Shown here: one piece after another, positions 35,239-54,112 of the stretch
Layout of the letters: the number at the start of each line of letters is the position of its first letter
Numbering within the stretch: the first letter of the stretch is position 1
Assembly (NCBI GenBank): GCA_026994795.1
Contig: JALWQB010000158.1
Coordinates: forward strand, 1-54,332
From: Deltaproteobacteria bacterium
GTDB taxonomy: Bacteria; Desulfobacterota; Dissulfuribacteria; Dissulfuribacterales; Dissulfuribacteraceae
Length of the DNA stretch: 54,332 nt
Direction: 5' to 3'
The notes under the pieces: model-generated
Seen by the model: the letters and a program-made list of their open reading frames with translations, nothing else
The model's database searches: none
Told to the model about the DNA's origin: nothing
Program-made: the position numbers and the translations under genes

Positions 35239-35324
35239 TGCCATGATAGGGGCCTGGTTGTCAGGTTTGTTCCTTTTTAGGTTATTAGAGAAGAACAAAA
35301 AACTAACTTATGTCCTTACAATAA

Positions 35325-35393
35325 TAAGGGAAAAGGAGGTATTTTAAGGATGAAAAAAGGAGGCGTGTTGAAAATGAGAAAACGAGGCGTATT
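35325..35393 (+). repeat. leader cassette L, copy 1
   Basis: A ~70-base segment holding the ribosome binding site AAGGAGG and the first codons of the 1615-residue protein. Near-identical at 41406-41477, diverged at 53328-53399. Each copy precedes a different surface-protein gene. Confidence 0.75.
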
Positions 35394-41320: not shown

Positions 41321-41434
41321 TGCCATGATAGGGGCCTGCTTGTCTGGTTCATCCCCTTTTTTAGCTTATGAGAGAAGAACAAAAAAAATAGCGGATGTCC
41401 TTTCAAAAATAAGGGGAAAGGAGGTATTTTAAGG

Positions 41435-42132
41435 ATGAAAAAAGGAGGCGTGTTGAAAATGGGAAAACGAGGCGTATTGTGGTTACCCCAGAGACCATTG
41501 TTACCACCCCTGAGACTACAGTGAAGTTAGCTGCCCTTGGGGGTGAAGGCGAGATTACATGGAAGGCGCAGAGGGGAGAGCTTTCCGCCATAACTGGAGC
41601 AGAGGTAGAGTGGACTGCCCTGTCCAATACTGGCTCATTCAATATAATCGCCACGGATTCAACATCTGCTATGGCAGTCATCTCAGTGGATGTGGTCTCT
41701 GAGGGGTTGAGGATTGTGCCGTCAAGCATCCATGTTGAGCCAAGGCATGTTGCGCGCCTTCAAGCAGCGCTTGGAAAAGGGCCTTACAGGTGGTATATAG
41801 AATCAGGCGATGGGGACATAGCCTATGATGAGGAAGATAGTGAGGAGGCTACATATACCGCCCCTCAGGTAAAGGGCGCTTATGATGTCAGGGTAGTGGA
41901 TGCGGCTGGTAATGAGGCAACCGCCAAAATATATGTCTATACAAGGGGCATAACAGTAAGCCCTGCCAATCTCTATGTCGCCAATGGCGAGAAGGGCGCT
42001 ATGTATGCAGGCGCTGACAGCAAGGTGGATGATATTGAGATGCAGACTGCCATTACGGATTATCTTCAGGGAGACGCATGGCTTACGCCTGATGTTATGT
42101 TCAGGCTGATTGAGGCGTATACAGGGGATTAA
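41435..42132 (+). pseudogene. deletion derivative of the Ig-like repeat gene
   Basis: Begins with leader cassette L (start codon at 41435) joined at about 41478 to the part of a gene like 35350-40197 that encodes its last Ig repeats. The two parts are in different frames, so the leader cannot drive the repeat part; the repeat frame opens with GTG at 41479 (217 codons). Compared with 39343-40197, 69 codons are missing after ANGEKGA, fusing the sixth repeat in frame to the C-terminal module (MYAGADSKVDDIEMQTAITD). It retains an end GD that the longer paralogue has lost. No signal peptide, so probably not functional. Confidence 0.75.
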
Positions 42133-52392: not shown

Positions 52393-52482
52393 GGAGGGAT
52401 GGCCGAGTGGTTTAAGGCGGCGGCCTTGAAAGCCGTTGTACCCGCAAGGGTACCGTGGGTTCGAATCCTACTCCCTCCGCCA
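52393..52482 (+). tRNA. tRNA-Ser (anticodon TGA)
   Basis: Acceptor GGAGGGA pairs with TCCCTCC; anticodon stem GCGGC/GCCGT closes the loop CTTGAAA with TGA; a long variable arm (GTACCCGCAAGGGTAC) marks a class II tRNA; T arm GTGGG-TTCGAAT-CCTAC. CCA is encoded. Confidence 0.95.
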
Positions 52483-52559: not shown

Positions 52560-52783
52560 TTTCCCGTGAAAAATAAAAGTGCGATTTGGCCACACTTCAC
52601 CCCTTCCATCAATGATGGTTTCTAAAAATGAAAAATGTGTTATAAACATGGCCAAATCGCATATGTATGAGTGGCTAACCCCGTACAAAAAATGCCACTA
52701 TTCGTTTGTGCGAAATTGGCACTCTCAAATTATTTATCTTTCATCAGACGGGGTGTCAATAGATAATTGACATGAATGTTTAA
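52560..52783 (+). repeat. R2 composite repeat (R2a + R2b)
   Basis: The first part (52560-52638) matches 48211-48287 and the second part (52651-52783) matches 31670-31800, both inverted. The element contains an internal inverted pair around GTGCGATTTGGCCA / TGGCCAAATCGCA. Open frames inside it are short and resemble no known protein. It lies next to tRNA-Ser and before a broken nuclease gene. Confidence 0.65.
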
Positions 52784-53048
52784 GGCAAGGATCAGGGCCA
52801 AGGGAGGCAAAGAGAAGTTGGTGCTGATAGAGCTTCAGAAGGCCAAACTGCCATCGGACATAATGCGTTTTAGAAGATATTTAGGCAGACAATATGCCAA
52901 TGAAGACAATGTAATGGAAGAAGGTGGGGAGAAGAAGGCATTACCCATAATAACCATCTATTTTTTGGGATATGCCATATCTGGCCTTGAAGACATTCCG
53001 ATAATTCGCATAGTCCGTCAGTATGAGGAGGAGATAAGGAGGTTGTAG
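52776..53048 (+). pseudogene. Rpn/PD-(D/E)XK-type nuclease, internal fragment
   Basis: Ninety codons reading KARIRAKGGKEKLVLIELQK (the E-x-Q-K active-site strand of PD-(D/E)XK enzymes), MRFRRYLGRQYANED and IITIYFLGYAISG, then ending abruptly in EEEIRRL and stop. The N-terminal part before the active-site strand is missing, and a large C-terminal part has been replaced by a short tail that resembles the other Rpn tails here. It belongs to a different subfamily from the gene at 40424. The purine-rich sequence after the stop is related to the R5 repeats. Confidence 0.6.
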
Positions 53049-53218: not shown

Positions 53219-53337
53219 ATTGGGATTTGTGGTGTAAAGATTTAGAGCATAAGGAATTACGACTTTAGGATTTATGGCATTCAGGATTTGGGGTATAATG
53301 ATTTGTGGTATTAAGCAAGGATTTAGGCCATAAGGAA
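53219..53337 (+). repeat. degenerate short tandem repeats before a leader cassette
   Basis: About six imperfect copies of a 17-23 base unit with consensus near GGATTT(A/G)TGG(C/T)AT. They fill the region (about 300 bases, 53049-53352) between the nuclease fragment and the leader cassette; the first part (53050-53110) is purine-rich. No gene is seen. Confidence 0.45.
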
Positions 53338-53352
53338 AGGAGGTATTTTGAG

Positions 53353-53870
53353 ATGAGGATGGAGAAAAGAGGCTTATTGGGCATGTGGAAACGAGGCGCA
53401 GCAAGAGGCGCAGCAAGTCTTTTTGCTCGGTGTCCCGTGTTGGGGACTGTGGTCAGGCTGCTGCGCTTACGGGGTCTGGCAGTGAGAATTTTGCCGGGGC
53501 ATGTGTCGTGGCAAGGGCGCCATGAGCAGGGTCATGGGCTCCGTTGATACCAACAGTGACGGGAAGATAGATAGGGATGATAGAATGGAGTGGCAGGCCG
53601 CCGTTGATTACTGCGCCGCCCTTACCTATGCTGGCTTTTCCGACTGGCGTCTTCCAAGCGCTTTTGAGCTTGAGACCATAGTTGATAACGGCAGATACGC
53701 CCCTGCCATAGACACCTCGACATTTTCCTGCGAGTCGTCCAATTACTGGTCGTCTACGTCCAACGCGGCCATCCCGATGGCGCGTGGGATGTCATTTCCG
53801 CCATGGCTACGCCGATTGGCATGATAAGGACTATTCCGGTTACGTGCGTTGCGTGCGTGGCGGACTATAG
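53353..53870 (+). pseudogene. DUF1566 (C-type-lectin-like) protein gene, probable DGR target, frameshifted
   Basis: Begins with leader cassette L (AAGGAGG then MRMEKRGLLGM), shared with the giant surface genes. The domain part reads MEWQAAVDYCAALTYAGFSD, WRLPSAFELETIVDNGRY, SCESSNYWSSTSNA, as in DUF1566/FGE-like C-type lectin folds. At least three frameshifts are needed: leader to domain (between about 53470 and 53540), a shift near 53775 to reach DGAWDV, and one near 53795 to reach RHGYADWHDKDYSGYVRCVR followed by GGL and TAG at 53868. The ending YVRCVRGG is typical of targets of diversity-generating retroelements. In the last frame, 13 of the 15 codons from 53799 to 53843 end in C or T, the pattern left when AAC/AAT template codons are mutated at A. 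Confidence 0.6.
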
Positions 53871-53903: not shown

Positions 53904-54011
53904 ATGGCAAGATATGAGCGCCTTCCCATATTTAGGCAAATGATGGAGCTTGCAGTATATATATTTTTTCAGGGTGGGCAGATTTTACGAATGTTTGGTG
54001 TTTTAAGATAA
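53904..54011 (+). pseudogene. avd: truncated DGR accessory protein (Avd-like) gene
   Basis: Starts 33 bases after the DUF1566 stop and reads MARYERLPIFRQMMELAVYI, close to the opening of the Avd four-helix-bundle protein (M..YEHLPIYK.A.DL.VY), which binds the reverse transcriptase in diversity-generating retroelements. Homology ends after about 20 residues; the frame stops at codon 36. Position and order (target, then avd) match the standard DGR layout. Confidence 0.5.
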
Positions 54012-54016
54012 GATAG

Positions 54017-54112
54017 ATGGCAAAAGTATGCTATATTATAGCTGGTCCAAATGGAGCTGGCAAAACAACTGTTGCGAAAGAATTTCTTCTAATTGAAGCC
54101 AAATGCCTATAG
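54017..54112 (+). pseudogene. truncated zeta-toxin-like P-loop protein
   Basis: A 31-residue frame MAKVCYIIAGPNGAGKTTVA followed by KEFLLIEAKCL and TAG. AGPNGAGKTT is the Walker A motif in the context used by zeta-toxin family kinases, which phosphorylate UDP-N-acetylglucosamine. The rest of the domain is missing and the following 130 bases do not continue it. Confidence 0.5.

Follow-up and report, generated by a model that had tools for sequence, protein, structure and literature searches.

Does the broken gene near the end of the window (by which we mean the whole 54,332-nucleotide stretch of DNA analyzed) carry the variable region (VR) of a diversity-generating retroelement (DGR), and is the machinery that would have rewritten it still present in the genome? 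The gene at 53353-53870 was matched by the Lcl_C/DUF1566 profile (PF07603, E 6.7e-18) in a Pfam profile search, in agreement with the original prediction of a DUF1566/C-type-lectin-like gene, and has its VR at the 3' end. Lcl_C, which is C-type-lectin-like, is among the known target domains of DGRs, and DUF1566 is the commonest Pfam domain among DGR targets (PMC6642488). The genome assembly (2.29 Mb, 275 contigs, 96% complete) contains four related intact Lcl_C genes on two contigs, C68 (target a, a 292-codon frame; target b, 958 codons) and C113 (target a, 267 codons; target b, 938 codons), and a DNA search of the genome found no further VR copy beyond these four and that of the window. Alignment to the intact target a of C68 (C68a) resolved the window gene into the following parts:

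53330 to 53520, plus strand: leader with the ribosome-binding region, then the N-terminal coding sequence of the decayed target gene from its start at 53353, 94% identical to C68a (12 mismatches in 191).
53541 to 53740, plus strand: remaining Lcl_C/DUF1566 domain upstream of the VR, from the profile match and the alignment to C68a.
53741 to 53863, plus strand: VR, its frame broken by two single-base gaps; the positions at which it differs from paralogues carry A in homologous DGR templates.
53847 to 53868, plus strand: 3' end of the VR, block GTGCGTGGCGGACTAT, the same in 5/5 VR copies in the alignment.
53868 to 53870, plus strand: original stop codon of the target gene by sequence, no longer read in the frame of the Lcl_C part that precedes it.

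Relative to C68a the window gene has three lesions: a big internal deletion (about 53500 to 53573), with most of the segment preceding 53541 gone, and the loss of one base after 53766 and another after 53793, both within the VR. The window copy is a dead pseudogene, as its frameshift had led the original prediction to consider possible. The 3' end of the VR resembles an initiation-of-mutagenic-homing (IMH) sequence in that it is kept in all copies with divergence beyond it, and from this position and conservation we predict that GTGCGTGGCGGACTAT is a sequence of the IMH type.

The suspicion of a DGR had arisen from codon composition. Re-reading of the frame from 53799 (CGC CAT GGC TAC GCC GAT TGG CAT GAT AAG GAC TAT TCC GGT TAC) confirmed that 13 of its 15 codons are NNC or NNT, and both of the invariant-looking ends that had been described, NYWSSTSNA and YVRCVRGG, are present. 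However, the run on its own is weak evidence and was dropped as proof of a DGR, because at least 13 NNY codons occur in 2.2% of the 15-codon frames of the window.

Comparison of the paralogues was far more informative. Between the window copy and C68a, 10, 11 and 2 sites in the VR differ at codon positions 1, 2 and 3, respectively, as against 1, 1 and 2 in the 33 codons just upstream, and six codons are changed at both of their first two positions. Divergence in the flanks is low throughout (6% in the leader, 7% in Lcl_C upstream, 6% after the VR and 3% in the remnant of avd, a DGR accessory gene, described below). Between C68a and C68b the VR differences number 6, 13 and 2 at positions 1, 2 and 3, and those upstream 6, 6 and 11, so that third positions differ at 2/42 sites in the VR versus 11/33 just upstream (p 0.002); such a marked likeness of third positions within the VR, compared with the sequence beside it, is what copying of both VRs from a single template would produce. 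A proxy for that template was taken from another genome of the phylum (G186), where it was fetched by similarity to C68a and not by the varied sites, and the codon alignment of VRs and template was made by hand. The A sites of the G186 template account for 21 of the 23 VR differences between the window copy and C68a; at codon positions 1 and 2, 21/42 A sites versus 0/41 non-A sites differ (p 2e-8), and across all five VR copies varied sites comprise 35/43 at A versus 4/41 at non-A (p 1e-11). Templates from three other intact cassettes (L066, L086 and L083) gave the same direction at codon positions 1 and 2, with p from 7e-5 to 4e-7, whereas L081 and L078 were dropped as sources of proxies when an ungapped scan found no template in them. 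The adenine-specific variation that had been proposed was thus borne out, and the genome's own paralogues, read against the G186 proxy, provided the near-copies with differences confined to template adenines that had been named as the check. On sequence comparison, this template-adenine bias of the VR differences is the DGR signature.

A rival reading is that no DGR was involved and that the pattern arose from ordinary point mutation and from selection for diversity at the residues with which the lectin-like domain binds its ligand. Lcl_C does show variation at these residues in many genomes where no nearby DGR was found, and the own genome yielded no reverse transcriptase (RT). Because Lcl_C generally varies at binding residues, the third-position test is a stronger guard against selection than the template test. 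In a control set of 2116 other Lcl_C pairs, 63% of changed codons have a different third base, compared with 20% in the own pairs and 0 of 25 changed codons in two Lcl_C pairs with a DGR in cis. In the VR the first two codon positions change and the third hardly does, six codons are doubly changed between flanks that differ by 3-7%, and an avd stub adjoins the gene; all of this speaks against selection without a DGR, a reading that we disfavor and regard as very improbable. A DGR origin of the VR is therefore well supported by the comparisons made here. The VR of C113b shows some third-position and non-A changes and may be older or less recently rewritten. In two same-order Lcl_C genes, L202 (G027:C66) and L203 (G039:C38), we observed a DGR-like pattern in which 17 codons are changed and the third base in 3 of them; the RT in G027 gave only a group II-like match, and G039 gave no RT match.

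Sequence downstream of the VR pointed to a DGR by a separate route. In all three of the genome's own loci, an open start resembling intact Avd (MARYEHLPIY...) lies just 3' of the VR:

53904 to 53972, plus strand: 5' stub of avd, MARYERLPIFRQMMELAVYIF, followed by unrelated sequence, found by tblastn with intact L081/L078 Avd.
Stub starts, by likeness to intact Avd: window 53904, MARYERLPIFRQMMELAVYIF; C68 982, MARYEHLPIFRKMMELAVYIF; C113 7080, MTRYERLLIVMRMMEIALYM.
54019 to 54110, plus strand: 5' part of a decayed Zeta_toxin-like gene, after the avd stub as in C68 (7 mismatches in 92).

The L081 and L078 Avd proteins used as queries match PF22296 (bAvd); they recovered the C68 stub at E 3e-5 (60% over 30 aa), the window stub at E 1e-3 and the C113 stub at E 2.3, which is weak on its own. 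The stub begins 35 bases after the VR end in the window, 35 in C68 and 43 in C113, and its position and strand agree with those of avd in intact cassettes. By this likeness in sequence and placement the stub, a 5' end only, would independently tie the window locus to a DGR. Truncated avd 5' ends were also observed shortly after an Lcl_C gene in two Sulfurimonas metagenome-assembled genomes (L106:10381-10479 and L118:4785-4856), and the target and avd-stub layout may therefore recur.

Intact cassettes combining avd and RT with Lcl_C targets were present at L078, L066, L083 and L086 from public genomes, in G186 and, on a viral contig, in L132; the cassette of L081 has another gene order, with avd ahead of target a. 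Relatives with intact DGRs mostly show the order target, avd, template repeat (TR), RT, target, as in G186:C17 of the same phylum (target a, avd, TR, RT, target b). The order here is target, avd stub, target; everything from inside avd to target b is missing, and in C68 the Zeta_toxin-like gene (PF06414, E 2e-8) lies in between. The DGR core therefore looks deleted from the own locus on the evidence of gene order. A side observation on the foreign RTs is that three DGR RTs carry a C-terminal match to MutS domain I (PF01624): L081:8511-9896 (E 9.6e-6), L078:2556-3971 (E 4e-9) and, on the minus strand, L243:5709-7232 (E 3e-7). The RTs of L066 and L132 gave no match to this domain, and a limited literature search found no description of an RT-MutS domain I fusion.

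Two further features were noted upstream of the decayed target. A 90-aa open reading frame at 52776-53048 is a fragment of a gene that is intact at C68 4692-5729 (90% over 82 aa), and the end of the window thus seems to be pieced together from decayed parts of the C68 locus. A tRNA-Ser (tga) gene lies at 52393-52482, about 0.9 kb upstream of the target; tRNA genes are common insertion sites of mobile islands. The original prediction had also linked the gene, through its leader, to the giant Ig-like genes of the window. The common leader stood, with about 75% identity to 35324-35389 and 41415-41474 (E about 1e-5), although the likeness stops after the ribosome-binding region and the initial codons; the link of hypervariation to that family is weak, since it consists of the leader, Lcl_C was absent from the giant proteins scanned with Pfam and no VR was found in the giant Ig-like genes.

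The proposal of a live DGR elsewhere in the genome was not supported by searches of the assembly. No DGR-clade RT was detected in the 96%-complete own assembly with either PF00078 (RVT_1) or a six-sequence DGR RT profile, the latter of which did recover DGR RTs in the same-order genomes G019 and G036. The bAvd profile found no avd in the own assembly beyond the stubs; a search of both strands with the VR anchor, allowing up to 3 mismatches, returned only the five VRs, and a DNA search of the assembly likewise gave no template. Outside sources were also considered and rejected. RTs of relatives are nearly all group II intron-like, and the DGR-type RTs of G019 and G036 show no linkage to an Lcl_C target, the targets in G019 looking FGE-type. 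Among viral contigs the VR anchor matched three, in which a motif scan revealed no VR, RT or avd, and no viral contig was matched by the IMH-like string. Lcl_C genes are present in G001 and G002 of the same family, but these genomes gave no DNA match to the cassette, which suggests, on these comparisons, its acquisition in the own lineage. The absence of RT, one of the outcomes that the original prediction had named as counting against it, argues against current activity in the assembly, not against a DGR origin of the VR.

The window copy and C68a have in common both the avd stub and the junction to the Zeta_toxin-like gene and thus would descend from one copy already without the core, their VRs having diverged afterwards. 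If the DGR is extinct in the lineage, rewriting took place before duplication or soon after it, and the present VRs are fixed relics that gene conversion has partly shuffled. We give this about an even chance: it fits the assembly without RT, template or avd, the same-family G001 and G002 without a related cassette by DNA, the non-A changes in C113b and the leftover targets kept by RT-less Treponema denticola isolates (PMC4891356), but it has to accommodate the low flank divergence between window and C68a, which makes the rewriting recent relative to the duplication, and a window VR that none of the five VRs could have donated unchanged. The DGR may instead be complete and live, in cis or in trans, with its RT and template lost during assembly or binning, as could happen if they sit on a plasmid or phage or at a hypervariable break, which we judge a real prospect, if somewhat short of even. 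In its favor are the divergence of the window and C68a VRs after core loss, an assembly of 275 contigs at 96% completeness in which C68 ends 69 bases ahead of its target a, and the broken loci of Thiohalocapsa PB-PSB1, some of which have intact variants in long reads while others are diversified in trans (PMC10907252); against it stand a window copy that is itself a pseudogene and an assembly with no direct trace of RT, template or a second avd.

Taken together, it is highly probable that the feature is a dead DGR target copy with a history of ancestral cassette, core loss, duplication, later rewriting in trans and decay. The ancestor would have held target a (Lcl_C with a 3' VR), avd, template, RT and target b, a longer secreted protein containing Lcl_C, and mutagenic retrohoming would have put the template into the VRs, randomizing template-A sites and leaving the rest fixed. 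A deletion between the targets that took the 3' end of avd together with template and RT would then have left target a, avd stub and target b, a unit subsequently duplicated (C68, C113, window); that loss preceded duplication is suggested by the one shared junction. Because the window copy and C68a share stub and junction yet show 21 adenine-type VR differences, the VRs were most likely still being rewritten in trans once the core had gone, by a now lost or unassembled DGR that resided elsewhere in the cell or was carried by a mobile element, although gene conversion from an unseen VR is an alternative. The window copy would have decayed last. In C68b and C113b, Lcl_C near the N-terminus is accompanied by three PKD domains and by a Peptidase_C13 match that is weak but over the cut-off, and C113b has a Peptidase_C14 (caspase) match just under it. 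We propose tentatively, as less likely than not, that an unassembled mobile element with a working RT and template rewrites the orphan targets in trans; as two of the intact targets are secreted proteins with the variable lectin-like domain N-terminal to PKD repeats and a C13/caspase-like peptidase, recognition driven by the retroelement would then steer an extracellular protease. Continued rewriting after core loss at the locus would add a case of DGR activity in trans.

The locus can be set beside three sets of known systems. Like the DUF1566/Lcl_C cassettes of G186:C17, L078, L066, L083, L086 and L132, it has an Lcl_C target with NNY codons at varied sites, the same VR layout and conserved 3' end, a second target (in these cassettes after the RT) and, at the spot directly after the target where they have avd, an avd-like 5' stub; unlike them, it is without RT, template and most of avd, and two of its intact targets (938-958 aa) have Lcl_C near the N-terminus, which places the VR within the gene. 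Isolates of Treponema denticola have orphan and truncated targets with no RT or TR (PMC4891356) and share with our genome targets left without the core, truncated genes among them, but the organism and target set are different and an avd stub marks the deletion point here. Thiohalocapsa PB-PSB1 (PMC10907252) shares incomplete loci with VRs still diversified, some best explained in trans, and sensor domains joined to peptidase effectors; there, however, RT and template are in the same genome, whereas none were found here. A global DGR survey states that remote targets go undetected (PMC8144416), and RT-first surveys miss such orphan loci. DGR activity can nevertheless be recognized from orphan targets without an RT by combining a foreign homologous template, paralogue comparison and an avd stub. 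Orphan and remote DGR targets are of an already known kind, and what is new here is the avd stub next to the window VR.
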